From Oceanobacillus manasiensis (GTDB lineage Bacteria > Bacillota > Bacilli > Bacillales > Amphibacillaceae), in contig NZ_CCDL010000003.1 of assembly GCF_000724085.1 (NCBI RefSeq), forward strand, positions 1 to 64,000: 64,000 bases of DNA, read 5' to 3'. Positions 8,830 to 63,721 of the stretch are shown piece after piece. A program made the position numbers and the translations under genes. Under the pieces are notes generated by a model. The model was given only the letters and a program-made list of their open reading frames with translations. It was not told the DNA's origin and made no database searches. The first letter of the stretch is position 1, and the number at the start of each line of letters is the position of its first letter.

Positions 8830-8853
8830 AAATGATGAAAGGAGGATGGCAAT

Positions 8854-13003: not shown

Positions 13004-13050
13004 CTTTTTTACCCTCAAAAACTAAACAAATTTTAAAAGGAGTGGTTTAC

Positions 13051-19996: not shown

Positions 19997-20971
19997 ATGG
20001 TTCTTGAAATTAAAGGCATAACTAAGATTTATCGTGGTCGTCACAAATCCCAGATTGTTGCAAACGATAATCTCACAATTTCTATAAAAGAGGGAGAAAT
20101 CCTAGGCCTATTGGGACATAATGGGTCTGGTAAAACCACTCTTGTCAATCAAATTATTGGCACATCAACCCCTTCAAGTGGTGATATTATCCTTCTTGGA
20201 GAATCTGTGAAAAATTCACCTAAGCGTGCCCGCTCTCTCTGTTCCGTGCAGCCTCAATCACAACTTCCTTTGGGTTTTTTGACCCCGTCACTAGCAGTTT
20301 CAACCATGGGGAAAATGCGTGGGGGTAACAAGAAAGATGTTAGTGAGAGAATGGAAATGTTATTTGAAGCATTGGATATAGGTAAGTGGGCCAATACCCA
20401 GGGAATAAAGCTTTCCGGTGGTATCCGCAGATTGACAGCTTTTTGTATGGCTGTGATCAAACCCGGAAATCTGGTGATTCTGGATGAACCTACAAATGAT
20501 GTGGATCCGACTCGCCGCCGTTATCTTTGGGAGGTGATTCGCCAATTAGCTGATGATGGAACCTCAGTAATCTTAGTTACGCATAACGTTATTGAAGCTG
20601 AGAAAGCTGTAGACAGGGTAGCCATTTTACACAAAGGTCAATTCATTGCTAGTGGGTCCCTTTCGGAAGTGAAAAGAAGAGAGAATAACAAAAGGCGTAT
20701 TGTGATAAATCCATTGGCCGGCATTGGAGAACAGGTAGTTCCGGAGTGGGCAATATCAGCACATCGTAATGGTACAGGGGTTACCATTTCAATAGACGAG
20801 GACGCTGTATCAAAGACAATTGAGTGGGCTGAATTTCAGATGAAGCATGGTATTATTTCAGATTATTTATTATCTCCTACTACACTTGAGGATATTTATG
20901 TCAATTTAACAAAAGAAAAGGATAAAGTAATAGACATAAATCGTGACTCAGAAAAGGGGGTTAGTCTATGA
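19997..20971 (+). CDS. ABC transporter ATP-binding protein of the cluster
   Basis: 324 residues from MVLEIKGITKIYRG; GGAGGT lies 12 nt upstream, somewhat far, and the longer frame to 19919 adds a poor leader. Walker A GHNGSGKTT, Q-loop region VQPQSQ, signature LSGGIRR, Walker B LVILDEPT and H-loop THNV are all present. It belongs to the ABC-2/drug-export subfamily (DRI type), with a C-terminal extension of about 80 residues. It overlaps the permease gene by 4 nt. It probably exports the cluster's product and gives self-protection. Confidence 0.9.
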   Translation: MVLEIKGITKIYRGRHKSQIVANDNLTISIKEGEILGLLGHNGSGKTTLVNQIIGTSTPSSGDIILLGESVKNSPKRARSLCSVQPQSQLPLGFLTPSLAVSTMGKMRGGNKKDVSERMEMLFEALDIGKWANTQGIKLSGGIRRLTAFCMAVIKPGNLVILDEPTNDVDPTRRRYLWEVIRQLADDGTSVILVTHNVIEAEKAVDRVAILHKGQFIASGSLSEVKRRENNKRRIVINPLAGIGEQVVPEWAISAHRNGTGVTISIDEDAVSKTIEWAEFQMKHGIISDYLLSPTTLEDIYVNLTKEKDKVIDINRDSEKGVSL

Positions 20972-21702
20972 CTACTTTTATTAACGATTTTAAATATGTG
21001 TTTCAAATGCAATTCAACAGGTATTCAGGTTTCCTATCCTTCTATGTCTTTGTTCAAATAATAATTTCGTTGGGTATTGTAATTGGTTTTACCTATCTGA
21101 TTGGGGATTCGAATGCTAATGAACTCCTTTATCTGGCTACTGGAGCACCAACTTTTGTTTTGGTGATTACGGGTCTCGTTCTTTTGCCTCAACAAATTGC
21201 CTCTTCTAAAACAGAAGGGTATATCGAATTTATACGTACCTGGCCAGTGAACAGGGGAGTGGTTATGGTAGCAGACACCGTTATCTGGTTGCTGATAGCA
21301 ATTCCAGGGATAGTAATTTCATCCTTGTGTGCACACTTTATGTTTCATCCAGGGTATGATGTATCATGGACAATTATTCCAGCAATAATTCTGATAGCCT
21401 TAGCATCAATTGGTGTTGGCTATGGGTTATCATATGCATTGCCTCCGCAAATATCAATGGCACTTACAAATGTACTTGCCTTTGGGGCACTAATGTTTTC
21501 ACCTATTAATTTTCCGATGGAGCGACTTCCTGAATGGCTTCAGACCCTCCACACCATTTTACCATTGTTTTCTATGGCAGAGATTATGCGTGAATCAATG
21601 GCAGCTTCAACCTTTACTGCTGACCTAGGAAATTATATTAATTTAACGATTTGGGGTGTCGTTGGTTTTATTGGAGCCATTTTCATATTAAATAAAAAGT
21701 AA
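20968..21702 (+). CDS. ABC-2 type transporter permease
   Basis: 244 residues with about six hydrophobic segments (near 20-40, 52-75, 103-125, 138-160, 168-185 and 222-242), and the ABC-2 feature of a conserved segment before the last helix (MERLPEWLQTLHTILPLFSMAEIMRES). AAAAGGGGG precedes the start. It forms the membrane channel for the ATPase encoded just upstream. Confidence 0.88.
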   Translation: MTTFINDFKYVFQMQFNRYSGFLSFYVFVQIIISLGIVIGFTYLIGDSNANELLYLATGAPTFVLVITGLVLLPQQIASSKTEGYIEFIRTWPVNRGVVMVADTVIWLLIAIPGIVISSLCAHFMFHPGYDVSWTIIPAIILIALASIGVGYGLSYALPPQISMALTNVLAFGALMFSPINFPMERLPEWLQTLHTILPLFSMAEIMRESMAASTFTADLGNYINLTIWGVVGFIGAIFILNKK

Positions 21703-21735
21703 TTTAATAAAACTAATACGAAGGATATGATAAAC

Positions 21736-22584
21736 ATGAGTGTTATTGCAGTTGTTGGAGCAGGTGTAATGGGAACTGATATAGCATCCACACTGTCATA
21801 TTATGGTTATAACGTTATTTTAAAAGATATACATCCAGAGGTGTTAGAGGAAGCACCACGCATTATGAGACAGAAAATTCGGGATTATAAAATGATTTCT
21901 ACCGATCTCCAAGACTGGAATGCATTAGATATTCTGAACAGAATAACATTCACGGATAACTATGATGCATTTGATGAAGTGTCATGGGTGATAGAGAATA
22001 TTACAGAAGACTTGGATGCCAAAATCAGTCTTTATAAAGAACTAAATCATAGATGTGGACAAGATACCTTGTTTGCTGTTAATACCAGTTGTCTTCCTAT
22101 CACTAAGCTCGCTTCCCAACTTTCAAGGCCAGATAGAGTAATTGGAATGCATTTTATGAATCCTGTACCTCTGAATGACATTGTCGAAACAGTACATGGA
22201 TTTCATACATCAAGCGAAACTGAAAGCACCGCCAAGGTATTTCTGAATAGTATTAATAGACAACCTTTATTAGTGAAGCGGGATTTTCCCGGTTTTGTAT
22301 CTAATCGTTTGTCACACTTATTTATGAATGAGGCTGCATTTTTAGTTCAAGAAGGGGTAGCAGATCCAGAACAGATAGATGCAATCTTTAGGAAAGGATA
22401 CTCACACAAAATGGGCCCCTTGGAAACGGCTGATTTAATTGGGTTGGACACCGTGGTTCAGTCTCTTAAAGTCTTGTTTGATAGTTACCAAGATTCAAAA
22501 TTTCGTTGTTGCCCTCTTTTGATGCAGATGGTGGATGCTGGTTTACTTGGTCGTAAAAGTGGCCGCGGTTTTTACTCGTATTAA
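21736..22584 (+). CDS. 3-hydroxyacyl-CoA dehydrogenase-like enzyme of hydroxymalonyl-ACP synthesis (FkbK/ZmaG type)
   Basis: 282 residues from MSVIAVVGAGVMGTDIASTL, an NAD-binding Rossmann start (GAGVMG). The dehydrogenase part has ENITEDLDAK, NTSCLPITKLAS, and GMHFMNPVP with the catalytic His; the helical C-terminal domain contains DFPGFVSNRL and GRKSGRGFYSY. In FK520 and zwittermicin pathways this enzyme oxidises glyceryl-ACP at C3. I preferred ATG 21736 to ATG 21727 because the latter lies too close to AAGGA. It starts the extender-unit block, whose four genes share one direction. Confidence 0.88.
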   Translation: MSVIAVVGAGVMGTDIASTLSYYGYNVILKDIHPEVLEEAPRIMRQKIRDYKMISTDLQDWNALDILNRITFTDNYDAFDEVSWVIENITEDLDAKISLYKELNHRCGQDTLFAVNTSCLPITKLASQLSRPDRVIGMHFMNPVPLNDIVETVHGFHTSSETESTAKVFLNSINRQPLLVKRDFPGFVSNRLSHLFMNEAAFLVQEGVADPEQIDAIFRKGYSHKMGPLETADLIGLDTVVQSLKVLFDSYQDSKFRCCPLLMQMVDAGLLGRKSGRGFYSY

Positions 22585-22607
22585 TCTTTGTAGAAAGGAT
22601 AATTAAT

Positions 22608-23654
22608 TTGAAGGAAGTTAAATGTGTAATTTGGGACCTTGATAACACTTTGTGGGATGGTACGTTGCTTGAGGGAGATGAAATCAAGCTGAAACCTGGA
22701 ATTCTTGATATTCTCCATACGCTTGATTCTAGAGGGATCCTTTTGTCTATAGCAAGTAGGAACAATCATAATCATGCAATGGCTAAGCTGAAGGAGTTTG
22801 GAATTGATCACTATTTTGTTTACCCGGAGATTGGATGGAACGCAAAATCTCATTCGATAGCTGAAATCCAAGAAAATCTTAATATTGGAATGGATACCTT
22901 ACTATTTATTGATGACCAGGAATTTGAGGCTGAGGAGGTTAAGTCAACTCATCCACAGGTTACTATCGTTCTTGCACACGAGTATCAACAATTGACATCT
23001 ATGAAACGCCTTATACCTAAAGTGATTACAGAAGAAAGCAGGCGGCGGAGATTCATGTTCATACAGGACCAAAAGAGAAAGGAGGATGAACAGTCTTTTG
23101 TAGGTCCATCGGGAGAGTTTCTAGCCAGTTTAAATATGATTTTCACGATTTCAACAGCACGTGAGGAAGATTTGTTGCGTGCTGAGGAGCTAACAATTCG
23201 AACAAACCAGCTTAATTCAACAGGCATTCAATACAGCTTTGATGAACTGAAGAAATTTTTGCATTCTCCACAGCATCATTTATGGGTTTGCGATCTATCA
23301 GACAAATACGGCAGCTATGGAAAAATAGGACTAGCACTTGTTGAAGTCAAAGATAATTCTTGGCACATTCGTCTATTACTTATGTCCTGCAGAATTGTTT
23401 CGAGAGGTGTTGGAACTGTCATGCTATCGCTTTTAATGAAAGAAGCAAAAATGGAAGGTAAATTACTTACAGCTGAATTTTTACGAAATGAACGAAACCG
23501 CCAAATGTTGATGACATATAAATTTGCTAACTTCAAGGAAAAACAACGTGTAGGAGACAAAATCTTATTTGAAAATGATTTAACAATCATTCAGGAATAC
23601 CCTCAGTATATTCAAGTGGTTGTTGATGGTATTCATTATAGTCAGGAGGTATGA
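22608..23654 (+). CDS. FkbH-like HAD-family glyceryl-ACP synthase
   Basis: 348 residues, TTG start behind GAAAGGATAATTAA. The N-terminus has the HAD nucleophile motif WDLDNTLWDG, then SIASRNNH and LLFIDDQEFE. The C-terminal half is the GNAT-like domain of FkbH proteins (LRAEELTIRTNQLNSTG, IRLLLMSCRIVSRGVGTVM). FkbH enzymes take 1,3-bisphosphoglycerate, dephosphorylate it and load the glyceryl group on a dedicated ACP. The next gene encodes that ACP. Confidence 0.93.
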   Translation: MKEVKCVIWDLDNTLWDGTLLEGDEIKLKPGILDILHTLDSRGILLSIASRNNHNHAMAKLKEFGIDHYFVYPEIGWNAKSHSIAEIQENLNIGMDTLLFIDDQEFEAEEVKSTHPQVTIVLAHEYQQLTSMKRLIPKVITEESRRRRFMFIQDQKRKEDEQSFVGPSGEFLASLNMIFTISTAREEDLLRAEELTIRTNQLNSTGIQYSFDELKKFLHSPQHHLWVCDLSDKYGSYGKIGLALVEVKDNSWHIRLLLMSCRIVSRGVGTVMLSLLMKEAKMEGKLLTAEFLRNERNRQMLMTYKFANFKEKQRVGDKILFENDLTIIQEYPQYIQVVVDGIHYSQEV

Positions 23655-23658
23655 AGTT

Positions 23659-23931
23659 TTGAATCGTACAGAGGTTTATAACCAAATCCGTGACTTCATA
23701 ATAAAAAACATGGAAGCATTCAACGATGGAGAAGACCTAGCTGATTCCGATAACATTTTTGAAAAAGGCTTTGTAAGCTCCATTTTTGCAATACGTTTAC
23801 TTCATTTTATTGAAAGTAAATTCGACATCGAAGTTTCAGATGAAATGATAGTTTTGGAGAACTTCAGCTCTGTGGATAATATCGCTAATTTGGTTAAGCA
23901 GCTAAAAGGACGTAATACTCATGCAAACTGA
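23659..23931 (+). CDS. Dedicated acyl carrier protein (FkbJ/ZmaD type)
   Basis: 90 residues. I chose the in-frame TTG 23659 (AGGAGGT 10 nt upstream); an ATG at 23651 is out of frame. It is a single ACP domain: IFEKGFVSSIFAIRLLHFIESKFDIEVSDEMIV. The phosphopantetheine Ser is the second S of GFVSS, where the usual Asp before it is replaced by Ser. It would carry the glyceryl, hydroxypropionyl-semialdehyde and hydroxymalonyl intermediates. Confidence 0.88.
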   Translation: MNRTEVYNQIRDFIIKNMEAFNDGEDLADSDNIFEKGFVSSIFAIRLLHFIESKFDIEVSDEMIVLENFSSVDNIANLVKQLKGRNTHAN

Positions 23932-25102
23932 AAGGCAGAGCGATATTTTAGAGAGAGCCTCAAGGTATGTTGAAACAGTCATTAGACCACAATCGGGAGA
24001 ATTTGATCAAAATCAAGCGATATCAGAAGAGGTAATTTTCGGTATGGCTGAGAGAGGGTTTTTGGGAGCAGCCATTCCAACTGAATACGGCGGTTTAGGA
24101 CTAGATCCTTTGAATTACGGTATCTTCACTAAAATATTTGGGAAAGCATGTTCCTCCACAAGAACTTTATTGACTGTTCATACTTCCCTTGTATGTGAAA
24201 CATTGTTGAAATTAGGAAGTACCTACCAAAAGGAAAAGTACTTAAAAGACCTTGCGAACGGTCGACGCATTGGGTGTTTTGCTTTATCGGAGCCAAATGC
24301 TGGAAGTAATATCAACGACTTACAAACAAAATGTGAGGAGCAAGAAGATTATTTCATTCTGAATGGGAAAAAAAAGTGGATTTCATTTGGAGAAGTAGCT
24401 GATTTATTTTTGGTTGTCGCAACGGAACAAGGTATCATAAAGACCTTTATCGTCGAAAGTTCAATGCCAGGAATTGAAATTCAACCAATGAAAGGTATGT
24501 TAGCTGGACGTGCTACACACATGGCCGAAGTTACCTTGCGCGACATGAAAGTTCCAAAAGAACAATTAGTGGGGATATACGGAAAGGGATTCAATATTGT
24601 AGTTAATACAGCTCTTTTTTATGGCCGTTACAGTATTGCCTGGGCTGGACTAGCAATTGTAGAATCCGCTTTAGAGGAAATGACGAAATACGCCAGAACT
24701 AGAGAGCAGTTTGGTCAAAAAATCGGCCAATTTCAACTCGTTAAAAGAATGATTGCTAACGCCGTAACGGATGTCCATGCCGCTCAATCTTTGTGCAATA
24801 GAGCGGGAGAGTTACGCAATGCTAATAACGATGAGGCAATTATGGAAACGAACATAGCTAAATACTTTACGTCCAAGGCAGCATTTCGCGTTGCTTCTGA
24901 TGCTGTTCAAGTATTAGGAGGCAACGGATGTTGGAATGAATATCCTGTTGAAAGATTATTTAGGGAATCAAAAATTTTGGAAATCATAGAAGGTACTTCA
25001 CAGATTCAACAGATTCTAATTGCAGATTATGGAATCCAAAAATATAGTACCAATACTATGGAACGGAGGAGTGGTTATGAAAAAGTACACGACTTTAGTT
25101 GA
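23921..25102 (+). CDS. Acyl-CoA dehydrogenase-like flavoenzyme (FkbI/ZmaE type)
   Basis: 393 residues, overlapping the ACP gene by 11 nt. Family hallmarks: CFALSEPNAGSNINDLQT, GKKKWISFGEVADL, TREQFGQKIGQFQLVKRMIA, VQVLGGNGCWNEYPVERLFRESKILEIIEGTSQIQQ, including the catalytic Glu in IEGTSQIQ. In FK520 and zwittermicin clusters this enzyme oxidises the C1-C3 unit on the ACP toward hydroxymalonyl-ACP. It is encoded together with its ACP, FkbH and FkbK partners, which fixes its role. Confidence 0.88.
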   Translation: MQTERQSDILERASRYVETVIRPQSGEFDQNQAISEEVIFGMAERGFLGAAIPTEYGGLGLDPLNYGIFTKIFGKACSSTRTLLTVHTSLVCETLLKLGSTYQKEKYLKDLANGRRIGCFALSEPNAGSNINDLQTKCEEQEDYFILNGKKKWISFGEVADLFLVVATEQGIIKTFIVESSMPGIEIQPMKGMLAGRATHMAEVTLRDMKVPKEQLVGIYGKGFNIVVNTALFYGRYSIAWAGLAIVESALEEMTKYARTREQFGQKIGQFQLVKRMIANAVTDVHAAQSLCNRAGELRNANNDEAIMETNIAKYFTSKAAFRVASDAVQVLGGNGCWNEYPVERLFRESKILEIIEGTSQIQQILIADYGIQKYSTNTMERRSGYEKVHDFS

Positions 25103-27038
25103 GAGTTTAAAGGAAGGAGCAGTAAATGATAAAGGAGTCCAATTTATTTATAGTGCCAATGATGAGGAATTTATGTCATACGAGGAGCTTTTATCAGAAG
25201 CTAGCAATTATCTTACGGCATTTCAAGAAATGGGTGTTAACAAGGGAGATGAATTAATATTACAATTTGAATCCGAACGTCCATTTCTCATATCCTTTTG
25301 GGCATGTTTGATTGGGGGAATAATCCCTGTTCCACTTCCATTTGATGAAACAAAGGGAAACGAGAAAAGATTGTTTAATCTTTGGCCTATACTTAAGCAA
25401 CCTTGGATTGCAACAAACAGTGACATACTTAAAAATAATTTAAAGTTATTTGCAAAAGAAAATGATCTTTTCCATACTTTTGAATCAATGTCATCACATC
25501 TGTTTTCACCTGAGCAAGTAGATTGTGTGAATCAACAACCTGAATATTATGAGCCTCATGCTGATGATATTGCATATATTCAATTCTCATCAGGTTCTAC
25601 TGGTCAGCCTAAAGGCGTTATAATAACACATAAATCATTATTGACAAGCCTATATGATGCGGCAGAAAAAATGAAGCCCATTAAGTCAGATTCAATGCTA
25701 TGTTGGATACCTTTAACACATACATTTGGCTTTACTCTTTTCCATTTGTTTCCGATATTATATGGATTAAATCAATATCATATGCAGCCGGGAGTATTTA
25801 TATCAAATCCTAACATTTGGTTTAGTTTTGTTCATAAATATCAAGTTAGTGTGATAGGTGCTCCAAATTTCGGATACCGTCATTTCCTTAAGCACTTTAA
25901 TTCCGAAATAGCTAATAAAGAAGAGTGGGATTTTAATTGTGTCAGGATGACTTGGTTTGGTTCAGAAAATATACCGATATCGTTATATAACGAATTCTTA
26001 GAATCGTTGAGTCCATGGGGGTTATCAGATCAGACATTCATAACGGCTTACGGTATGACTGAAAACAGCGCACTAGTAGCTATGAATGACTTAAATCAAC
26101 TACCTTTATCTTATTCTGTTGATCGTACACATTTGGGTGTGGGACAGGAACTAAAAATTGTTGAACCTGATTCCATGAATGCTATTGAAATTGTGAGTGT
26201 CGGTTATCCGATTGAGCATACTGATCTTAGGATTATTGTAAACGGTACAGCCTGCATTGAGAACGTTGTAGGACATATTGAACTCAACGGACCCACTGTG
26301 ACTCCAGGATATTATCGAAATTCAGAAACTACACAAAAGTCATTTACCGTGGATGGTTGGTTAAAGACTGGAGATATTGGGCTTATTGCTGGTGGTGAGC
26401 TATTTGTTATAGGACGTGCTAAAGACATAATCATCATCAATGGGAAAAATTACTTTCTTACGGATATTGAAGATATGCTTGTTCAAGGTGCTGGTAAAAA
26501 TATGGTTGGGGCATATGTCGCATGTGGTGTTCCAAATGCAGAAACAAGCACAGAGGATTTGATTATATTTGTACATTTAGAGGAAGAGGCCGATCAGTTT
26601 AATTCCATTGTAAAAGAAGTTCAACTAGCGCTATTTAAGCATAATGGTCTACGTGCTGCACACGTATTACCTATTAAATCAATACCAAAAACCGATAGCA
26701 ATAAAGTTCAACGTTATAAATTGGTCGAGAATTACCAAGCAGGGGAGTTTAATCAAATCATTGATAAGATAAATCAGTCTAGTCGGTCAATTAAACAAAA
26801 AAATAAATGGATTAAGTTAATTAAGGCAGAAGTTGAAGAGTTGACAGGAATGACAAATGTAAGTGTAACTACTAATTTTTTTGATCTAGGCCTTAGTTCG
26901 GCCCAGTTGGTCGTATTACAAGATCAATTGCAAAAAAGTTTAGGTGTTGATCTAGAAGTTTCTGATACCCTGAATTATCCAAATATACAAACTCTTGCGA
27001 ACTTCATAAACAGTAATGGAAAAGCTTCGTTAGTTTGA
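25077..27038 (+). CDS. Acyl-AMP ligase-ACP loading protein (FAAL-like)
   Basis: 653 residues from MKKYTTLVESLKEG (ACGGAGGAG 5 nt upstream), overlapping the previous gene by 26 nt. The adenylating domain has IQFSSGSTGQPKGVIITHKS (A3), WIPLTHTFGF, the FAAL-like GAPNFGYRHF, AYGMTENS, LKTGDIG and GRAKDIIIINGKN. A C-terminal ACP (about 580-650) has its attachment Ser in FFDLGLSSAQLV. Such proteins activate a carboxylic acid as the AMP ester and pass it to their own ACP, so it should start the assembly line. Starter identity cannot be read, but a fatty or short aliphatic acid is likely. Confidence 0.88.
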   Translation: MKKYTTLVESLKEGAVNDKGVQFIYSANDEEFMSYEELLSEASNYLTAFQEMGVNKGDELILQFESERPFLISFWACLIGGIIPVPLPFDETKGNEKRLFNLWPILKQPWIATNSDILKNNLKLFAKENDLFHTFESMSSHLFSPEQVDCVNQQPEYYEPHADDIAYIQFSSGSTGQPKGVIITHKSLLTSLYDAAEKMKPIKSDSMLCWIPLTHTFGFTLFHLFPILYGLNQYHMQPGVFISNPNIWFSFVHKYQVSVIGAPNFGYRHFLKHFNSEIANKEEWDFNCVRMTWFGSENIPISLYNEFLESLSPWGLSDQTFITAYGMTENSALVAMNDLNQLPLSYSVDRTHLGVGQELKIVEPDSMNAIEIVSVGYPIEHTDLRIIVNGTACIENVVGHIELNGPTVTPGYYRNSETTQKSFTVDGWLKTGDIGLIAGGELFVIGRAKDIIIINGKNYFLTDIEDMLVQGAGKNMVGAYVACGVPNAETSTEDLIIFVHLEEEADQFNSIVKEVQLALFKHNGLRAAHVLPIKSIPKTDSNKVQRYKLVENYQAGEFNQIIDKINQSSRSIKQKNKWIKLIKAEVEELTGMTNVSVTTNFFDLGLSSAQLVVLQDQLQKSLGVDLEVSDTLNYPNIQTLANFINSNGKASLV

Positions 27039-27057
27039 GAAAAGGGAGGAGAACGAC

Positions 27058-30000
27058 ATTCGGGAAAATGAGGGTATTGCTATAGTTAGTATGTCTTGTC
27101 GCTTTCCAGGAGGTGCAGATACACCGGAGAAATTTTGGGAACTATTGGATAAGGGCATCGATCCGGTTAGTGAAATACCTGAAGGTAGATGGAAAGACGA
27201 TCCGTCGACCAACAAAAATATTACTACACGTAAAGGATCATACCTTGATGATGTAGAAAAGTTTGATCCATTGTTTTTTGGAATTTCGCCAAAGGAAGCT
27301 CAATCAATGGACCCTCAACAACGGCTTTTGCTGGAATTACATTGGGAAGCTTTAGAGGATGCAGGTTGGGATCCAACATCATTAGCTGGAACAAAAACAG
27401 GGGTGTTTGTAGGGATTTCTGGCAGTGATTATGCTCAGATCGGTCGTGACCTTGGGCATTCCCCGGGACCCTATACCTTTACCGGAACTTTGCTGAATAC
27501 TGCTGCTGGTCGAATTTCATATGTTCTTGGTCTGCAAGGTCCATCCATGGCTATTGACACAGCATGTTCTTCTTCTTTGGTATCGGTACATCAGGGGATG
27601 TTACAACTACGGTCAGGTGGTTGTGATGTCGCATTGGTATCAGGGGTAAATTTAATTTTAAGGGCAGAGGGACATGTTGGTACAACCAGCCTTGGAGCAT
27701 TGTCTCCTTCTGAGCGTTGCCGAAGTTTTGATGATTCTGCTGACGGATACATTCGGAGTGAAGGTAGTGCTGTTCTTATCCTCAAACGATTGGAAGATGC
27801 AAAGCGGGATGGAGATTATTTGTGGGGGGTTATCCGTGGAGGTGCCGTTAATCACGATGGCCGTAGTGGTGGACTGACTGTTCCTAATGGATTGTCCCAA
27901 CAACAACTGATCCGGTATGCTTTATCTGATAGTGGTTTAAAGCCGGAAGATATCGATTATGTGGAAGCACATGGCTCTGCTACAAAGATTGGTGACCCAT
28001 TAGAGGTCAATGCATTAGCAGAAGTTTTTAAGAAAAGGAAACAATCGGTTCACTTAGGGAGTGTAAAATCAAATCTGGGTCATCTTGAAGCGGCTGCAGG
28101 CATAGCCGGTTTGTGTAAAATATTGTTATCGATGAAGCATGGTCGGATTCCAGCAAATCTACATTTCCAAAAAGGGAATCGCTTAATAAAATGGGATAAA
28201 ATCCCACTTGAGGTTGTTCATGAGCCTATAGAATGGAAAGCAAGACAAGGTGTGCGTCGGGCTGGGATAAGCGCATTTGGTATTAGTGGAACCAATGCTC
28301 ATTTAGTGGTTGAATCAGCTACTGAAAATAATAAGGAATTACCATTAAATAATACAGATGCACATTTATGTACGATATCTGCTCAAAGTGAGAATGCTTT
28401 GCGTCAATATGTCAGGGATTTAGCAGATTGGTGTCGTCAACCGACAGCTGGAATAGCTGAACTTTGTGTGAATCTTAACCGGGGGAGAGCGTCACTCAGT
28501 CATCGACTTGCACTGACCGTAAGTGATTTGGAATCTTTGGAAAAACGACTGGACAATCTGGCTAATTCTTCAAAGAAGCTAGGGGTTCAAGTGGGTGAGG
28601 TACAAAAACCTTTAGTTTTTCTGTTCACTGGACAAGGATCACATTACCATAATATGGCACGAACCTTGTATGAACAATCCTCAGTATTTAGAAAGAAATT
28701 TGATGAACTTGATGCATTGTTTGAAATGAAAATCGGAAAATCGTTGGGACAAATCATTTATGGTCCAGAGACTGCTGAGATTCATCTCCCTTTATATGCA
28801 CAACCTTTGATCTTTTCCATCCAGATCGCATTAGCTCATTTTTGGGAATCTTTAGGCGTAGTACCGGATATGTTCATTGGACATAGCATTGGCGAGTATT
28901 CAGCTGCATGTTTAGATGGTGTAGTAAGTATGGAAGATGCTATCCATATGGTTTTCACTAGAGCATATATCATGGATGAAACGCCTATGGAAGGTCGTAT
29001 GGCTGGTATGTTAGCCAATGAGTCTGTTGTTCGCGAAATGATTAGTAAGTATGATGATGTTTCTATAGCTGCAATTAACTCATCAGAGAATGTCACAGTA
29101 TCTGGTGGAAAGTCGAGTATGGACGATTTAGTATCTCGAGCACGAAAAAAGAGAATCTTTGTTGAGGATCTTTTAGTGTCTCATCCTTTCCATTCGGTGA
29201 TGATGAAAGATAGGGCACACCTACTAAAAACTGAATTTGAAAAAGTGACATTTCATGAACCATCCTATCGTTTTATCTCTTCGGTATATGATGATTTTAT
29301 TCCTGAAGATGTCATGTTAAATGGGGATTATTGGGTAAAACATTTGGTGGAGCCAGTTCGCTTTTCTGATGCATTGGAAACAGCGGTTTCACAAGGAGCC
29401 CGTGTTTTTCTGGAAATTGGAGGTACTGCAACCCTATGTGGACTGGCAGCGCAAAACAATTTAAGTGGAGAAAATTTGTTGTTTTTACCTAGTTTACGTA
29501 AGAATCGTTCTTCATGGAAGCAAATATACCAAAGCTTAGGCCGATTGTGGGAAACTGGTTATCCAATACAATGGAATGCTCTTTATAGTGGTGATTTTAC
29601 AAGAACAGAGAATCTTCCACATACTCCTTACGATCGCAAAAAATACTGGATATCGGATATAAATGTTTCCAATCAAACATCCCAGGAGATTGAGAATACG
29701 TTGGAATCAAAAGTGGAGCAGCAAATAGACGATTTCCGGGGAAAAATGGATACGCATTTGAAGAAGATTGAAAATGATGCTGATATTCAGGAGTCTTTAA
29801 GGAACATGCTAGAGGACATTGTAGAGGTGCGTAGTGAAGATATTACGAATTCTATGAATCTATTTAGATTTGGACTGGATTCTTTAATGCTTGTACAACT
29901 TTCCGAGAAAATTATGCATCAATATCGTTTAGATATTCCAATAAAAATGTTCTTTGCTGATTTGAATACAGTTAATGCATTAAGCAAATATATTCACGAG

Positions 30001-33852: not shown

Positions 33853-34077
33853 ATGTACTAGCGGTGAACACTTGGAGGCGAGGATAGTAAAGACTGTCGA
33901 ATGTCACTTTCGGTTTTGACAATTTATTCTTGCCTTCTCTTGTTAATGAGACGGGTAATGTACGAAGTAAAATGCACACTAAATTATCTCAATGTTATAA
34001 AGATTTACATCTGATCTATAATTATATAGCCTTTCATTTCAAATATGATGAAAGGTTAGTGTAAAGGGGTTATAAAA
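33853..34077 (+). promoter_or_regulatory. 225-bp intergenic region with possible internal promoters
   Basis: This is the largest gap inside the synthase genes. It contains TTGACA (33917-33922) without a good -10 at 17 bp, and TATAAT (34017-34022) about 55 nt before the trans-AT gene with a weak -35. A second transcription start for the trans-AT and later genes is plausible. Confidence 0.4.
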
Positions 34078-40049: not shown

Positions 40050-40053
40050 TGAA

Positions 40054-51754: not shown

Positions 51755-51771
51755 TAGAAAGTGGTGAAATT

Positions 51772-54999: not shown

Positions 55000-57900
55000 A
55001 TGGACGTTAAAACGAATTATACTGGGTTAGAAATCGCAGTAATAGGTATAGCGGGTCGCTTTCCAGGAGCAAAAGATACGGAGGAATTTTGGGGGAATCT
55101 CACAGAAGGTAAGGAATCCATAAGCTTTTTCAGTGATAAGGCTCTTTTAGATGCGGGTGTAGATCCAGAGCTGTTGTCAAATTCAAGGTTTGTAAAAGCT
55201 AAAGGGTTATTTCCAGATATAGAAAACTTTGATGCTGAATTTTTCGATTATACTCCTGGCGATGCATCGCTCTTAGATCCCCAGGTTCGTGCATTGCACG
55301 AGGAAGTCTATCATGCGCTTGAGGATGCTGGCTATGCTTCAGAGGAGAACGTAGATATTGGTCTGTTTGTGGGATCGACGGGTAATTTTGCTTGGGAAAT
55401 GGATACCTTGCAATCTGGTATGAATAAAAATGAAAATCACTTGAGTGCTGTTCAATTCAATGATAAAGACTTTGCAGCTACGCGTATTGCATATAGCCTG
55501 AATTTACATGGACCGAGTGTCACGGTACATAGTGCTTGTTCAACCTCCCTATATGCCGTAGATGTCGCTTGTCGTCATCTACTAACAGGCGGATGTACTT
55601 TGGCCGTTGCAGGGGGAAGTGGCTTAACTCTACCTGAAAAGAATGGATACATGCATCAAGAAGGAATGATACTATCCTCTGATGGCCATTGTCGGCCTTT
55701 CGATGAGAATGCTGATGGGACAGTTGAAGGTAACGGAGTCGGTGTTGTAGTTTTAAAAAGGCTTGATGAAGCAATAAAGGATAATGATCGAATCTATGCC
55801 GTAATCAGGGGTTCAGCCTCTAATAATGATGGGAATCGGAAAGCAGGATTTACGGCACCTAGTATTGATGGACAGGCTAATGTGATTAAACGTGCACTGA
55901 ATATGGCGGATGTACCTTCGAGCAGTATTTCATATGTAGAAACCCATGGTACAGGGACTAACATTGGTGACCCTATAGAAATAGATGGATTAAAAAAGGC
56001 TTTTTCATCATCACACCCAGTTTCGTGTGGCATTGGTTCATTAAAGTCAAATATTGGGCACCTGGATGTAGCCGCTGGTATTTCTTCTTTAATAAAAACA
56101 TCGCTGGCACTCAAACATAAGGTGTTACCTGCAAGCATAAACTTTGAAAAACCAAACAAAAAAATGGAATTGGACAAAAGTCCCTTTTATGTTGTTACTG
56201 AAACAAAGGATTGGCATAGACCGAAGAAAGACAATGAATCTGATGAGTACTACCCATTACGGGCAGGAGTCAGCTCATTTGGAATAGGTGGAACAAATGT
56301 CCATTTAGTATTGGAAGAGCCTCCTGAACAAGGGGAGTCGAGTGAAGGAAGGGATTGGAAACTATTCAGCTTATCTGCCCATACTGATGAAGCATTACAA
56401 CGAATGAAGAAGCATTATCTTGATTATCTAAATAACGCTTCGGGAAAACTGAATTCTTCCGATTTGGCATGGAGTTTACAGGTAGGACAAAGAAATTTAC
56501 CGAAACGTTTTACAATGCCATATAAAGAAATAGAAGATTTAATTCAGAGGTTAACTGATGATTTGGATAAAAAACAGATAACCACTTCAGCTTCTAAACC
56601 AAATGTTTACTTTTTATTCCCAGGTCAAGGTTCTCAGTACCTAGGGATGGCCCGGCAGCTGTATGAATCGGAATCTCGTTTTAAAGAAGAGCTAGAAGCT
56701 TGTCTTCAGCTTGTGGAGAAGGATGGAAATACAGAGCTAAGAACATTGCTATTGGATTTGAAGGATGGCGATGAAGAAAAACTTAAAGGAACGGACATTG
56801 CCCAAATTGCATTGTTTGTTGTCGAGTATGCAATGTCACGTTTGCTGATGTCTTGGGGCATTCGACCATCCGGAATGATTGGTCACAGTATTGGGGAATA
56901 CACCGCTGCAAGTTTATCAGGGGTACTATCCCTGGAAGAAGCCATTCGACTTGTAATGGAACGTGCAAAACTAATGAAATCAATGCCTCGGGGGTCCATG
57001 TTAAGTGTGAATGCATCTGAAAGTATATTAACACCTTTGTTGTCTAAAGGGATATATTTGTCTGCTGTCAACAGCCCAGAGCAATGCACCGTTTCTGGAA
57101 CAGAGGAGGCCATTAATGCTTATAAAGATAAACTAGCGGAAAATCAACTCAGTTTTACTAAAGTGCATACAAATCATGCATTTCATTCTCCGCTTATGGC
57201 AGAGGCAAAAAAGTCATTTGAACAAGTATGCAGTAGTGTTCCATTCGGCACGCCTCGTATTCCTTATATAGCGAATCTGACAGGGGAATGGATGACTGAG
57301 GAAGATGCGGTATCCCCTTCTTATTACGGCAATCATTTGCAGGAGTGTGTCAAATTTGAAGAAGGACTTGAGAAAATTCTATCTGATGATAAAGCGATAC
57401 TTATAGAAGTAGGACCTGGGCATACTTTGTCTACCTTTGTCCGTCAAGCTCAATCTTACCGGCCTCTTGGGGTACTGAACACTATACGACATCCTAAAGA
57501 AATAGTTGACGATGACGCATTTCTTGTCGAGAGATTGGGAAAATTATGGACTTTTGGGGTGAGGATTGATTGGGAGGAATATTACAAGGGACAGGTTCGA
57601 AATCGTGTGGATTTACCGCATTATCCTTTTGAAAAGAAAAAATTTCCAGTAGGGAATGGCATAAATCATTTGGTGGAATCAATCAACTCATCGAAAGCAA
57701 AAATTGTAGCCACAAGTGAAGTTGTTGATACTGATCCTGAAATTGAAGAGGTCAATGGAATTACAGCCTCACAGATGCTTTGGGAATCAACATTACTGCC
57801 TTCATTACATCCTTCCGAACAAAAACGGACATGTTTGGTGTTGACGAATGATCCGGGGGGTGTTCGTAAATTGATGGATAACTTGCCTCGATGGAGAAGT

Positions 57901-60900
57901 TTTCTTGTTCGGGACAGTGATCAATATCGATATGAAGGGACTCTTGGTGGAACTATTAGGAATGGAAATTCCATGGATATGGGTCGTTTGATTCGGGACT
58001 TTCGTGAACAGGCAATGATGCCCAATACTATTATCATTGCACATTCAATGGTCCGACAAATAAAAAGTGCACTCAGATCATTGATTTATGCTTTAATGAC
58101 AGAATGGATAGATAACATACCTGAGGTGGTCGTCATAAGCCCGGTTTCTCCTGTTTCCAATGACTTGGAATTAGTCACGATGGTTAGGGGATTGGTTATA
58201 GAGTATCCTGATTTAAGCATACGTTTAGTTGATGCCGGATGTCCTTTAAGAGAAGAAAATGCTCTCGAAACATGGACGACAATATTAAAACGGGAAATGG
58301 ATCCCAATACGAACCGTTATCCTGTTGTATCTTATGTGGATGGTTTACGCCTTGTGCCAAAGTTCAGAGAGATAGAAGCAGATAATACCGGTATGAAATC
58401 ACTGTTTCACAAGGGACATTTGGTGTTGTTTAGCCATGAAGACATGCTTGATGACTCTGTTGTCTTTCAACAAAGCCTTGAAAATGAAACAGGGGCTCGG
58501 GTAAGCATTTTACCTTATCGAATTAAATCTAGTTCGTACAATGAGAAAGCAATTGTTAACATGTTGGAAGAAATTAATTCCGAACAATCCGAATATTTAT
58601 TGGATTTCAGGGGAGAAGATTTACCTGATAATCTGAATGTCTTATATCATAAAATGGATGAATATGCTGTTCGTTTATCTATTGATTTCGTAAATTCGGT
58701 TTTTCCTATGGATATCGGCCAAACTTTTAACAGAAAAGAATTTAAAGAAAAATTAGGTGTCATCCCTCAATTGGAGCGGTATGTGGATTATTTCCTACAT
58801 ATGTTCAGTGAAGACGGGATTGTGGACAGTATTGGGGAAGATCGATATAGGATCACAAAGAATATTTATTCTTTGCGTTCCCCGAATATAATTCGGAATG
58901 AAATTGAAAATTTAACACCTTTATTTACGGGTCAACTAGATCTATTGGAACACAGTGTCAGGAACTTTGGACCAGCGTTTAGAGGCGAGATTCCTTCTTT
59001 GAAAGTATTGTATCCAACAGAAAAAGGGAAGGAAGATTTGCTACTAAAATCACATCGTGAAACGATTCAAGAAAAGGAAGAAATTTTTACTAAACAAATT
59101 TTTGCTTCTATGATTAAAAAAATAGTTGACCGTAAAGGAAAGGAAAAGGTTCGTATCCTTGAGGTTGGTGGCGGATACGGAACAATGGTGCGAGAAGTAG
59201 CCCCATTATTAAAAGAAATGGATGTAGAATTTTATTTTACAGACATAGGAAATTCTTACTTAGAGGCACTTAGGGAATATGCTTTGGTGGAAGAATTAGA
59301 CTTTATGCATTTTGGCCTCTTTGATATTACGAAGGAACCTATGGAACAAGGCCTAGCTCTAGCATCTTTTGACCTAGTATATGGATATAATGTTGTTCAT
59401 GCAACAGAAAGTCTTTCAACCAGTTTAAAAAATCTCCAAAGTCTATTAAAACCAGGAGCATTGTTATGTGTAATGGAACGGACTACAACTCGTAGATATG
59501 TAGATTTGATTTGGGGTTTGTTGGAAGGTTGGTGGCATTTTGATAAGCGTGAAAGAGAATTGTCACCTCTAGTTTCCATCGATGAGTGGATACATCAGTT
59601 TAAGCAAATTGGATTGGAAGCTATAACTTCCTTCCCTGAGGATACTAATTTGGGCATTAATTTAGATGTGGGAATAATTGTCGGCCAGAGGCCTGTCAGT
59701 AATAATCACCTAGGGACTAAAAATAGACTTCCTGGGGCGGGTAATGGAACAATCTTACCGACGGTAGCTGAGTCTACACTGGCTTCTCTAAAATCGGCTC
59801 TTGATCAAAAATTACGGAACATTCCTGATATTCAAGGAATTGTACTGTGGGATGAACTCAGGAAGGGAATAAATAAATTTGAACGTATTAGTCCGATTGT
59901 TCCCGAAGAAGTAAAGGTTGCTAACTGCGTAAACAGTTATGTAATTGAAACCGCAACTAATTTTAAAAAACCAGGGATGATTGTTTCCAAGGTCCCAATG
60001 ACCCATAAATGGGATTCATCCATAACAGAATGGACAATTAATCATGAAGAAATAGATAAAAATCCGTTTTCTCATCGAATCTACGTTCCCGATGGAGAAA
60101 ATTACCAGATTAATAGAATTCCCAATATAATGGAAGGAATGCTGAAATCTGGAATCAGACAACTTGTTATTAATGGAGGCGATCATCCTTTTTTTACAGT
60201 GAAACCAGTAAGACAAGAAGACTCTAGAAAAGAGAAAGTTACAGAATTAAAAAATATGGAGATATTAATTAGTCAGATTTGGGGAGAATTATTTGGCCGA
60301 ACAGAAATTGATATTGATGCGGACTTTTTTGAATTAGGAGGTGATTCTTTTAAACTAATTCAGATGACGGGGAATTTAGAGCATAAGGGGTATAAAGTGT
60401 TGATGAATGAAGTATACAATTACCCTACTATTCGTTCCTTGGCTAAATATATAAATGACAAAAGTAATAAGAATAATCAAAGCATCGTTACTCCTAAAGA
60501 TATGGAAGACTATTTGTATGAACAAACGAAGATTTCATGCTCCTTTCAGGTTGTAAATGGGCCTAAACCACTGAATGTGTTATTAGTGAATGAAAAAGGA
60601 TCCACTGGAACTATTGATACCGTACGGGACCAGCTGAGAAATATTGATGTATCCAATGAGATGCTGCCACATTATATTTTTCCACTTCACAACACGGAAG
60701 AGTTGCAGGATTTGAAAGATGTTAGAGACTTATCTGAATTAGATTATTTGTCTAATTTAGAAAAAGGTCAACTCCAAAATATAATAGAAAATATAAATAG
60801 AGATCAGCAGTTATTTGAGAACGCAATTTTTAGTCAGCCAATTACAAAACGTTATAATCTAAGCAGCATACAAAAAGCTCACTTTAGAGGAGAAGTGCGA

Positions 60901-62148
60901 TTACAATTTTACTTGATTGAATTTCACGAAATGGTAGATTCGTCAAGATTGGAACAAGCCTTTTGTGATGTCATTGATAGTCATGGATTATTACGAAGCA
61001 GCTTGGAAAAGAGTTTGGGGAAATTTAGATGGAGAGAGTATGCTCCTCCTCAAAAGACTTCGATTCCGAAATTGGATATCTCAAACTTAACGTTAAAAGC
61101 CCAGGAACGGATAATGGACTGGCTAGCAAAAACAGAATGGGGTGCAGATTTTAAAATAGCCGACAAACTCATGTACCATGTTGTGCTAATCAAGTTAAAC
61201 GAGCAACATTATAATTTGTTTTTTCAATTCGATCACTCCATTTTTGATGCATCTTCAGGAGCAACTATTCGGCGTCAAGTATTTCAGCGGTACAACGACC
61301 TGAAGAAAGGTGTTAGAACGGCAATGGAAGCATCAGCAAGCTATGAAGAATATTTGAATCAAATTCATCTGGGGCCTATTGATATAAGTCCTGAAGAATT
61401 GCACTCCAAATTTGATTTGGCACGATACAGTGAGTATAAACGTCTTGTTAAATCAAAATTCAAGAAAATTGATACTGGGCGAATTCGAACTTTACAATTT
61501 AGTGTCGATCTCAACTCTTTCCATTTGGAAAACAGCGAAAACGAAAATGGGGCCTTTGAAATTGGAGTACAAGTTTATATTCTTGTGATTTCTAGGTTAT
61601 TAAACATTGACGCAGTCCCTTATGATTTATTATTTCAGAATCGTAGATATCAAGGAAAGAATTTTTCTGATGTCGTAGGTCTTGTTTTAGATCCTGTGCC
61701 TTTCTTGATTCCTGTCGATCGTGATAATCCATCGCGTATGACTGCTTTAATTCGTGAGAGAATTGGAATGTTAAACAAACATAATATTAATTTCGGTAAC
61801 TTATTACGAAACATTCCAACGATATTACGTTGGCGTAAGATAATTAAAGCTACCGGGGCGCTTAATCCCATCTTTTATTCTCCATGTCTTTTGAACTTTG
61901 TAGGGATTTCAGAGATGGAGTATGACAAAATATGGGATTACCACCTTGCACAATTGGATGACGAAGATCAGTCGAAACTGAATTATGGTGATTTTTATGG
62001 CCTTTTCACGACTTCAAACAATCAGTTGAAATTCTTAGTTTTCTCTAAATTCATGAAGGATATGGAGCAACTTCGTGAAGTTTTCAACGAAGAACTGGAT
62101 CATTTGATGCATGTACATGCAGGAAAGGAAGCGGACAATAGCATATGA
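55000..62148 (+). CDS. Terminal PKS: KS-AT-(KR remnant)-C-MT-ACP-terminal C-like domain
   Basis: 2382 residues; AAGGAGG upstream. KS (Cys 180 in HSACSTS, ETHGTGT, NIGHLD). AT with GHSIGEYTA (Ser about 630) and HAFH, the malonyl pattern. Residues about 910-1130 look like only the structural half of a KR, without the TGGTGxLG site. C-methyltransferase about 1330-1560: LEVGGGYGT, YGYNVVHATES, LLKPGALL, LLEGWWHFD. ACP Ser 1783 in GGDSF. The last 500 residues are a condensation-like domain with FDHSIFDASSG (His about 2079) instead of HHxxxDG. No thioesterase follows in the protein, so this domain probably releases the product. Confidence 0.88.
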   Translation: MDVKTNYTGLEIAVIGIAGRFPGAKDTEEFWGNLTEGKESISFFSDKALLDAGVDPELLSNSRFVKAKGLFPDIENFDAEFFDYTPGDASLLDPQVRALHEEVYHALEDAGYASEENVDIGLFVGSTGNFAWEMDTLQSGMNKNENHLSAVQFNDKDFAATRIAYSLNLHGPSVTVHSACSTSLYAVDVACRHLLTGGCTLAVAGGSGLTLPEKNGYMHQEGMILSSDGHCRPFDENADGTVEGNGVGVVVLKRLDEAIKDNDRIYAVIRGSASNNDGNRKAGFTAPSIDGQANVIKRALNMADVPSSSISYVETHGTGTNIGDPIEIDGLKKAFSSSHPVSCGIGSLKSNIGHLDVAAGISSLIKTSLALKHKVLPASINFEKPNKKMELDKSPFYVVTETKDWHRPKKDNESDEYYPLRAGVSSFGIGGTNVHLVLEEPPEQGESSEGRDWKLFSLSAHTDEALQRMKKHYLDYLNNASGKLNSSDLAWSLQVGQRNLPKRFTMPYKEIEDLIQRLTDDLDKKQITTSASKPNVYFLFPGQGSQYLGMARQLYESESRFKEELEACLQLVEKDGNTELRTLLLDLKDGDEEKLKGTDIAQIALFVVEYAMSRLLMSWGIRPSGMIGHSIGEYTAASLSGVLSLEEAIRLVMERAKLMKSMPRGSMLSVNASESILTPLLSKGIYLSAVNSPEQCTVSGTEEAINAYKDKLAENQLSFTKVHTNHAFHSPLMAEAKKSFEQVCSSVPFGTPRIPYIANLTGEWMTEEDAVSPSYYGNHLQECVKFEEGLEKILSDDKAILIEVGPGHTLSTFVRQAQSYRPLGVLNTIRHPKEIVDDDAFLVERLGKLWTFGVRIDWEEYYKGQVRNRVDLPHYPFEKKKFPVGNGINHLVESINSSKAKIVATSEVVDTDPEIEEVNGITASQMLWESTLLPSLHPSEQKRTCLVLTNDPGGVRKLMDNLPRWRSFLVRDSDQYRYEGTLGGTIRNGNSMDMGRLIRDFREQAMMPNTIIIAHSMVRQIKSALRSLIYALMTEWIDNIPEVVVISPVSPVSNDLELVTMVRGLVIEYPDLSIRLVDAGCPLREENALETWTTILKREMDPNTNRYPVVSYVDGLRLVPKFREIEADNTGMKSLFHKGHLVLFSHEDMLDDSVVFQQSLENETGARVSILPYRIKSSSYNEKAIVNMLEEINSEQSEYLLDFRGEDLPDNLNVLYHKMDEYAVRLSIDFVNSVFPMDIGQTFNRKEFKEKLGVIPQLERYVDYFLHMFSEDGIVDSIGEDRYRITKNIYSLRSPNIIRNEIENLTPLFTGQLDLLEHSVRNFGPAFRGEIPSLKVLYPTEKGKEDLLLKSHRETIQEKEEIFTKQIFASMIKKIVDRKGKEKVRILEVGGGYGTMVREVAPLLKEMDVEFYFTDIGNSYLEALREYALVEELDFMHFGLFDITKEPMEQGLALASFDLVYGYNVVHATESLSTSLKNLQSLLKPGALLCVMERTTTRRYVDLIWGLLEGWWHFDKRERELSPLVSIDEWIHQFKQIGLEAITSFPEDTNLGINLDVGIIVGQRPVSNNHLGTKNRLPGAGNGTILPTVAESTLASLKSALDQKLRNIPDIQGIVLWDELRKGINKFERISPIVPEEVKVANCVNSYVIETATNFKKPGMIVSKVPMTHKWDSSITEWTINHEEIDKNPFSHRIYVPDGENYQINRIPNIMEGMLKSGIRQLVINGGDHPFFTVKPVRQEDSRKEKVTELKNMEILISQIWGELFGRTEIDIDADFFELGGDSFKLIQMTGNLEHKGYKVLMNEVYNYPTIRSLAKYINDKSNKNNQSIVTPKDMEDYLYEQTKISCSFQVVNGPKPLNVLLVNEKGSTGTIDTVRDQLRNIDVSNEMLPHYIFPLHNTEELQDLKDVRDLSELDYLSNLEKGQLQNIIENINRDQQLFENAIFSQPITKRYNLSSIQKAHFRGEVRLQFYLIEFHEMVDSSRLEQAFCDVIDSHGLLRSSLEKSLGKFRWREYAPPQKTSIPKLDISNLTLKAQERIMDWLAKTEWGADFKIADKLMYHVVLIKLNEQHYNLFFQFDHSIFDASSGATIRRQVFQRYNDLKKGVRTAMEASASYEEYLNQIHLGPIDISPEELHSKFDLARYSEYKRLVKSKFKKIDTGRIRTLQFSVDLNSFHLENSENENGAFEIGVQVYILVISRLLNIDAVPYDLLFQNRRYQGKNFSDVVGLVLDPVPFLIPVDRDNPSRMTALIRERIGMLNKHNINFGNLLRNIPTILRWRKIIKATGALNPIFYSPCLLNFVGISEMEYDKIWDYHLAQLDDEDQSKLNYGDFYGLFTTSNNQLKFLVFSKFMKDMEQLREVFNEELDHLMHVHAGKEADNSI

Positions 62149-62855
62149 GTGAAATTGATTTATTCTGCATTCCCTATGCCGGGGGATCTGCAAGTGCCAT
62201 CTATGGTAAATGGGCCCAAGAGCTGGCCCCCATTATCAATTTAATGCCATTGGAATTGGCTGGGCATGGCAAAAGGATGTCTGAACCTTTCCATTCTAAT
62301 ATTAATGGCGTTGTAGAAGATCTACTCAAGAACATGCGGAATCGGATTCAGGATCGTCCTTATGCAATATATGCTCATAGTATGGGGACTATTATAGCGT
62401 ATGAATTGGTGGTAGCTATTTGTACCGCTGGACTTCCACAGCCCCATGCTCTATTTTTATCTGGTCGTCAGCCACCAGATTACCAATATGTAAACAAGAA
62501 CTTTCACAAGATGTCGGAGAAAGACTTTCTCCAAGAGATTAAAGATATTGGCGGGACACCGGAAAAGTTTTTCAATTCTCAAGAGTTGATTGACGCATTT
62601 TTACCTATTCTTCGTGATGACTACCGTATCATTGAAAATTATAGTTTCTTAGACCGGAAAATCATCTTTGACTCTGATATAGTTTTTTTCTATAGCGATA
62701 ATGATGATTTAGTTAATAAACCCGGTATAATCAATTGGGAGCGATTTACTAAGAAGTCATTTGAGTATTATGAGTTTAACGGTGGGCACTTTTTTTTGAA
62801 TGAAGTATGGAGAGATATAGTAAGAGTGATTAATAAGAAACTAATTAGTAACTAA
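62145..62855 (+). CDS. Type II thioesterase
   Basis: 236 residues, the usual size, overlapping the synthase by 4 nt (ATGA). Alpha/beta-hydrolase of the RifR/SrfAD type: IPYAGGSASAIYGKW, LELAGHGKRM, active-site Ser in YAHSMGT (AHSMG in place of GHSMG), and His in FNGGHFFL. Such enzymes clear misloaded or stalled acyl groups from carrier domains. It is not a product-release domain. Confidence 0.92.
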   Translation: MSEIDLFCIPYAGGSASAIYGKWAQELAPIINLMPLELAGHGKRMSEPFHSNINGVVEDLLKNMRNRIQDRPYAIYAHSMGTIIAYELVVAICTAGLPQPHALFLSGRQPPDYQYVNKNFHKMSEKDFLQEIKDIGGTPEKFFNSQELIDAFLPILRDDYRIIENYSFLDRKIIFDSDIVFFYSDNDDLVNKPGIINWERFTKKSFEYYEFNGGHFFLNEVWRDIVRVINKKLISN

Positions 62856-62860
62856 TTGTT

Positions 62861-62960
62861 TGAATGAATTGGGCTAATCATCATTCAACTAAAAAATTAA
62901 GAGTAGCTCATTATGTATGTTTACGATTAGAAATGGCCTGGCTTAATTCATTCATTTTTT
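62861..62960 (+). terminator. Long hairpin with T-run: terminator or attenuator before the PPTase gene
   Basis: TGAATGAATTGGGCT (62861-62875) can pair with GGCTTAATTCATTCA (62940-62954) as a 15-bp stem (three G-U pairs) with a 64-nt loop, directly followed by six T. The same TGAATGA can instead pair with TCATTCA at 62881-62887. Two exclusive hairpins, the later ending in a T-run just before the ribosome binding site, look like an attenuator. A plain terminator is the simpler reading. Confidence 0.5.
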
Positions 62961-62974
62961 GAGAGGTGAAGAGG

Positions 62975-63721
62975 GTGATATATGAAACCAGTTGTAGTAT
63001 TGAACTAGCTAGACAGAGTAAAATATATCACGCATATTTTGTAATGGGACAAAATCTAGGTGGGGAATCAAACTTAGTTCAAACCCTGAGTATCGATGAA
63101 TTAAAAGAGTATAACACACATAAATACAAAAAACGGATGGTTGAATATTCATTTGGAAGATATATTGCTAAAAAAAGCGTAATCCATTTTTTGAAGAATA
63201 AAAATCTTAATGAGATAACAATAGGTAGGGGAGTTTTTAATCAGCCTGTAGTATATAGCTCGGAAGATTCAAAAAGACTTCAAGTTAGTATCAGTCATGT
63301 CAACAATATTGCCGTTTCAATTGTTTTTCCGGAAGAACACCCAATGGGAATCGATATTGAAAAAATATCGGATGATAAGTTGGAAGCTTTGTCTAAGCAA
63401 TTATCCGATAACGAAAAAACCCTCCTTTACTTAACAAACTTAGAAAAATCAGAAGGATTTACACTTTTATGGACGGTAAAAGAAGCGATATCTAAAGTAA
63501 TGAAAACTGGTTTAACCGTTCCATTGTCTATTTTTTCAGTGAAAAGTATTGAAAAGGTTAATGGGGGATATATAAGTGAATTTGATCAATTTTTACAATA
63601 CAAAGTCTTCTCCTGGATTATTGACACTTATATTTGTTCGATTTGCATGCCAAGATATTCATCTTTCACTATCAATATAAATAAAGTAAATTTGATGCCC
63701 ATTGATAATTGCGATAAATAA
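62975..63721 (+). CDS. Sfp-type 4'-phosphopantetheinyl transferase
   Basis: 248 residues from GTG 62975, which has GAGAGGTGA 5 nt upstream; the GTG at 62966 would overlap that site. Sfp motifs: VSISHVNNIAVSI, MGIDIEKIS (Mg-binding Asp/Glu) and LWTVKEAISKVMKTGL (WxxKEA). It converts the apo carrier domains of the synthase to holo form. At 248 residues it is close to Sfp. The C-terminus is AT-rich and Ile/Asn-rich. Confidence 0.93.
   Translation: MIYETSCSIELARQSKIYHAYFVMGQNLGGESNLVQTLSIDELKEYNTHKYKKRMVEYSFGRYIAKKSVIHFLKNKNLNEITIGRGVFNQPVVYSSEDSKRLQVSISHVNNIAVSIVFPEEHPMGIDIEKISDDKLEALSKQLSDNEKTLLYLTNLEKSEGFTLLWTVKEAISKVMKTGLTVPLSIFSVKSIEKVNGGYISEFDQFLQYKVFSWIIDTYICSICMPRYSSFTININKVNLMPIDNCDK

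Follow-up and report, generated by a model that had tools for sequence, protein, structure and literature searches.

The window analysed here comprises the first 64 kb (64,000 nucleotides) of contig 3 of the Oceanobacillus manasiensis genome (3.80 Mb). The open reading frame (ORF) list and Pfam scans delimited a single co-directional gene cluster at 19997-63721, running from an ABC exporter to a phosphopantetheinyl transferase (PPTase) gene. We consider it about 75% probable that this cluster is a complete hybrid cis-acyltransferase (AT)/trans-AT polyketide synthase-nonribosomal peptide synthetase (PKS-NRPS) line for a lipidated polyketide-peptide. What is new here is that the cluster has six co-linear relatives and that the first module of the family is a mosaic. 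Judged from the encoded domains, the product would most likely be acyl-(hydroxy-ketide)-Gly-diene-ketide-D-Ile-X-methylated ketide, where X is one further residue. Such a product is probably new, with its Gly-derived diene and its D-Ile-X-methylated ketide end.

Domains across the cluster were called with Pfam E-values of about 1e-6 to 1e-150. In addition, the active-site motifs of the ketosynthase (KS), AT, acyl and peptidyl carrier protein (ACP and PCP), condensation (C), adenylation (A), epimerization (E), dehydratase (DH), and ketoreductase (KR) domains were intact, and the DH and KR motifs were complete. The cluster is real, complete, and apparently functional. All the genes and domains listed in an initial annotation of this DNA were recovered in the same order by Pfam and in the ORF list. 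The hybrid architecture proposed there agrees with the presence of AT-bearing and AT-less modules in one line, together with a free AT.

Co-linear relatives and the mosaic first module

The six relatives were found in Paenibacillus tyrfis and in the genomes G436, G1175, G1628, G1473, and G1482, and their core proteins were 41-58% identical to those of the window. Because the seven clusters are co-linear, the assembly line is not a chance grouping of genes. A genome search with PKS-NRPS 4 (proteins are numbered along the line) led to G436 through a 44% full-length match, and the whole G436 cluster was co-linear; a genome contig scan with PKS 6 gave no match. The P. tyrfis cluster was reached through an alignment of the exporter permease. 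Furthermore, profile searches with the terminal domain of PKS 6 returned G1175 as the 1 member among 396 genomes of the family of G586, and across the class they returned G1628, G1473, and G1482 besides the window's own cluster (399 genomes). Members of this cluster family are therefore sparse. Weaker profile hits in the family of G586 (E 1e-20 to 1e-52) were not counted as members, because the two that were inspected, G1061 and G1086, were C domains of unrelated NRPSs. A plasmid search (PLSDB) gave no match to the cluster, and the sister species G092 gave no match to the terminal domain or to a right-flank gene.

P. tyrfis Q-3-15 (NZ_JAMZAW010000030.1) is the sole named relative with the whole cluster. 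It shares the gene order from the exporter to the type II thioesterase (TEII), and its core proteins are 51-57% identical to those of the window. However, its ligase is fused to the first PKS, an aminotransferase domain is present, X is predicted to be Val, and the PPTase gene lies apart on the opposite strand. The tree of the core proteins is unrooted. When PKS 2 and PKS 3 were used to root each other, G436 came out as the outermost member, and the inner splits were weakly supported. A decayed remnant of the cluster was also seen in Paenibacillus sp. 2.1 (L079 8192-15240), comprising a broken ABC gene, a truncated dehydrogenase, pieces of NRPS 5 and PKS 6, and an intact TEII.

The free AT, the two KS-DH-KR-ACP modules, and the KS-ACP-C-A-PCP-E, C-A-PCP, KS-AT-methyltransferase-ACP-C, and TEII parts are constant in the family, and their active-site residues are retained. 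In contrast, four different first-module layouts occur among the seven clusters. The ligase is present in the window, G1473, G1482, P. tyrfis, and G1175; it is absent in G1628 and G436, in which the first protein opens with a bare ACP. An extender-unit cassette lies beside the cluster in all but G1473 and G1482. In addition, a class III aminotransferase (AMT) domain stands between ACP and C in G436, P. tyrfis, G1175, and G1628, the latter three copies being 58-63% identical to that of G436. No AMT domain was found in PKS-NRPS 1 of the window or in its G1473 and G1482 counterparts, and the best AMT matches elsewhere in the window genome lie on other contigs with 31-34% identity. In the window PKS-NRPS 1, part of the ACP-C linker still looks helical and can be aligned with the linker that precedes the aminotransferase in the relatives, which fits, without proving it, a past loss of the aminotransferase domain.

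Two places seem to generate the diversity of the family, namely the first module, with its ligase, cassette, and aminotransferase, and residue X. The set of seven clusters is a ready-made comparison in which the starting unit changes and the remainder of the line does not. More tentatively, and with a probability that we place somewhat below even, this would be a natural combinatorial family with a constant trans-AT/NRPS core and exchangeable initiation parts, whose DHxxxD terminal domain is a bacterial release and cyclization catalyst and whose products form a new class. G436 also carries a zinc-type dehydrogenase and a KAS III between PKS 6 and TEII (L038 7720-9766), perhaps an alternative starter supply replacing the ligase. 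Close to the G436 cluster lies an A-PCP-reductase gene that was excluded from the line; the window genome lacks a counterpart.

The architecture had been called unrecognised in the initial annotation. This holds for the literature searched, since full-text searches (MIBiG not covered) returned no product or description matching the cluster; it does not hold for genomes, since six or more others carry the same line. It is unlikely that the cluster makes an already known natural product. Although the existence of six relatives, one of them in the named P. tyrfis, means that the product may have been isolated, the literature searches gave no match.

Assembly line and predicted product

All genes of the cluster lie on the plus strand. 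The exporter consists of an ABC transporter ATP-binding protein (19997..20971; PF00005, 3e-23), syntenic in all seven clusters, and an ABC-2 permease (20968..21702; PF01061), which has 61-70% identity in the six relatives. Many genomes of Oceanobacillus, Lentibacillus, and similar bacteria encode stand-alone homologues 60-69% identical to this permease (20968-21702), together with their ATPase. Since such homologues are widespread, the cluster may have acquired its exporter from a common pair of this kind.

The extender cassette follows. It comprises a 3-hydroxyacyl-CoA dehydrogenase (3HCDH)-like enzyme of the FkbK/ZmaG type (21727..22584; 3HCDH_N, 7e-47), an FkbH-type HAD protein with predicted glyceryl loading onto ACP (22608..23654; NCBIfam TIGR01686, above cut-off), a free ACP (23659..23931; an ORF with a TTG start and AGGAGG upstream), and an acyl-CoA dehydrogenase (ACAD)-like enzyme of the FkbI/ZmaE type (23921..25102; Acyl-CoA_dh). 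The free ACP is 58-65% identical to its counterparts in P. tyrfis, G1175, and G1628, and an O-methyltransferase is absent. By analogy with the zwittermicin and FK520 pathways, such a set gives hydroxymalonyl-ACP. On the basis of these pathways, the previously annotated extender cassette can be assigned to the hydroxymalonyl type, and we infer that module 1 uses hydroxymalonyl.

The fatty acyl-AMP ligase-ACP loading protein (25077..27038; NCBIfam PRK09192, 9e-83; PP-binding domain) was set to start at ATG 25077, which is preceded by GGAGGAG. PKS-NRPS 1 (27058..33852; KS-AT-ACP-C-A(Gly)-PCP by Pfam and A code) had been listed from 27091, but its true start lies 5' of that position, most probably at ATT 27058. 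This start is likely because a strong ribosome site, AGGGAGGAG, lies six bases 5' of the ATT, directly after the ligase stop (27031-27093 region), and because no in-frame ATG, GTG, or TTG occurs ahead of the KS motif. After its last PCP, the protein carries a tail of about 190 aa (33265..33849). In hhalign comparison with the C domains of the cluster, the match of this tail was confined to one half of a condensation domain, the C-lobe (template 199-421 of 447; E 6e-6). It is present in the compared relatives, alignments of PKS-NRPS 1 with their proteins extend into it, and it may dock to the next KS.

Downstream lie the free (trans) AT (34078..35349; Acyl_transf_1; NCBIfam fabD above cut-off) and three AT-less proteins, namely PKS 2 (35349..40049) and PKS 3 (40054..44925), both KS-DH-KR-ACP by Pfam and motifs, and PKS-NRPS 4 (44915..51754; KS-ACP-C-A(Ile-type)-PCP-E). 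These are followed by NRPS 5 (51772..54999; C-A(X)-PCP) and PKS 6 (55000..62148; KS-AT(malonyl)-C-methyltransferase-ACP-terminal C-type domain). A discrete TEII (62145..62855; Thioesterase, 7.5e-37) and an Sfp-type PPTase (62966..63721; ACPS, 2e-11) end the cluster.

When the KSs were ranked against solved PDB structures, which is not a clade tree, those of PKS 2 and PKS-NRPS 4 were nearest to trans-AT KSs, e.g., PksJ and PksL, that of PKS-NRPS 1 to the cis-AT KSs CurL and DEBS, and that of PKS 6 to ClbC. The A-domain code of PKS-NRPS 1, DILQIGVVWK, indicates Gly, as in 7/7 clusters. That of PKS-NRPS 4, DGFFLGVVFK, is Ile-type, again in 7/7 (DGFFLGVVYK in G1628), and the E domain of this protein retains HHxxxD and NYLG. 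These codes and the E domain support the Gly and the D-Ile-like residue that had been proposed before. The code of residue X is Val-type (DAFW[IVL]GGTFK) in 4/7 clusters and different in the window, G1175, and G436. A C-methylated last ketide, also part of the initial annotation, is supported by the methyltransferase domain of PKS 6, whose best match is the solved CurJ C-methyltransferase (1e-35); motif I of this domain is degenerate in G436 alone among the seven clusters. The hydroxymalonyl origin, Gly, Ile, epimerization, and double bonds are assigned here on established knowledge of these families.

In the proposed mechanism, the ligase would activate a fatty acid and load it onto its own ACP. 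The first PKS module would then add a C2 unit, most likely hydroxymalonyl that the FkbH/dehydrogenase cassette would build on the free ACP, and Gly would be added next. With the free AT charging them, the two trans-AT KS-DH-KR-ACP modules would add two C2 units and yield two double bonds, and the KS-ACP module would add an unreduced ketide. After that, the Ile-type residue would be added and epimerized, residue X would follow, and the last module would add a malonyl unit and C-methylate it. Finally, the terminal C-type domain would release the chain, the TEII would edit, and the ABC pair would export. Both the nature of X and the way the chain is released are predictions.

Several points weigh against this scheme. 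For the A domain of NRPS 5 (DSHFLGGTCK), no confident residue assignment was obtained, and we know of no residue that this code fits. In addition, a hydrophobic residue at the RXR position of the AT lid motif has been used as a test for ACP-borne extender use (PMC4207774). In the module 1 AT of the window, F-V-E replaces RXR, and the motif is nearly identical in clusters without a cassette: G1473 and G1482 share it, with no cassette lying beside the cluster and the sole FkbH match sitting in another PKS-NRPS locus. Therefore, the lid motif was dropped as a proof of hydroxymalonyl use. As for the last step, nothing found here establishes ketide-chain release by a bacterial terminal C-type domain, and the discrete thioesterase could release the chain instead.

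Terminal C-type domain and its proposed role in chain release

The domain at the end of PKS 6 (60604..62145; Condensation, 8.5e-17) had been noted earlier as C-like. The domain is indeed present, and the description can be corrected in that it retains the second, catalytic His of HHxxxD, the first His being replaced by Asp. The motif DHSI(F/I)D occurs in 7/7 clusters and reads DHSIFD in the window. Its solved relatives by sequence are only C domains and related NRPS domains. A C domain acting in release, like the terminal C domains of fungi, is expected to be C-terminal, to have the catalytic His, and to have no module downstream, and the terminal domain has these features. Pfam found no fused releasing thioesterase in PKS 6. 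Strong NRPS A-domain matches in this genome are limited to the cluster's own three, all others having at most 26% identity, and an A-PCP partner downstream of the terminal C domain is thus not evident. For this reason, we propose that the terminal C-type domain would release the chain. We hold this with moderate confidence, because the discrete thioesterase is likewise constant.

How the domain might act can be considered in several ways. It is possible, though doubtful, that it closes a macrocycle. In the AMT-bearing relatives, a 3-amino-2-hydroxy fatty acid would attack the last thioester through its 3-amino group; in the AMT-less line of the window, a lactone would be formed through the 2-hydroxyl. 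The AMT domain between ACP and C in G436, P. tyrfis, G1175, and G1628 fits ring closure, as do the catalytic His in all clusters and the lack of a fused releasing thioesterase. However, the window, G1473, and G1482 have the same terminal domain and no amine-forming domain; therefore, amine attack cannot be the chemistry shared by all. Another route, which we regard as rather unlikely, starts from the predicted last intermediate, an aminoacyl-beta-ketothioester with a C-methyl group. Here an N-acylated 3-methyl tetramate would arise when the amide N of residue X attacks the 2-methyl-3-oxo thioester, with the terminal C-type domain or no enzyme as the catalyst. This would be workable in all seven clusters with any first module, but no Dieckmann-type cyclase domain was found, and the route follows from substrate geometry only.

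A reading in which hydrolysis by the discrete thioesterase gives a free acid, with the terminal C-type domain left as a remnant or serving for docking, is very unlikely. A TEII-type gene does end the line in 7/7 clusters. Nevertheless, the terminal-domain His and the surrounding motif are invariant although the whole protein is just 41-55% identical, and a remnant is not expected to keep a catalytic motif. With release by the terminal C-type domain still preferred, this domain makes it possible to test how a chain leaves a PKS module that has no fused thioesterase.

Known systems and surroundings

Initiation of the iturin/mycosubtilin type (MycA/ItuA with a free AT) has a fatty acyl-AMP ligase-ACP-KS start and an ACP-AMT-C-A order. 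The window shares this start and the free AT, and four relatives share the ACP-AMT-C-A order, which the window lacks, having no AMT. The window further differs in its cis AT, extender cassette, later trans-AT ketide modules, and C-methylated last module. Puwainaphycin-type cyanobacterial lines have a ligase start and make a 2-hydroxy-3-amino fatty acid, the hydroxyl coming from a monooxygenase domain. The AMT-bearing relatives share this logic; however, their hydroxyl would come from the extender unit. The hydroxymalonyl-ACP pathway of zwittermicin A has, like the window, an FkbH HAD protein, 3HCDH-like and ACAD-like enzymes, and a free ACP, and no O-methyltransferase. However, the ZmaA-AT has GYSFG and GAAH (PMC4207774) where the window has GHSIG and HPFH, and the remaining line is unrelated. 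The KSs of PksJ and PksL from the bacillaene/PksX system are among the nearest solved relatives of those of PKS 2 and PKS-NRPS 4, whereas the window has only three AT-less modules with AT-bearing modules flanking them. Solanimycin (with Gly, aminotransferase, and trans-AT domains) was ruled out by its different published architecture, and paenilipoheptin, from a Paenibacillus hybrid, by its different NRPS order.

Upstream of the cluster, a mobile region (4290-12222) contains a phage-type integrase (4290-5366), a resolvase (7676-8323), and an IS21-type helper ATPase (9986-10705) that adjoins a 506-aa ORF. At 12991-13677, there is an HNH endonuclease of the homing-endonuclease type with a NUMOD4-like stretch. 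In addition, a protein with an LXG domain and a DNA/RNA non-specific endonuclease domain, probably an interbacterial toxin, is encoded about 6 kb past the cluster at locus L080 (6719-8950).

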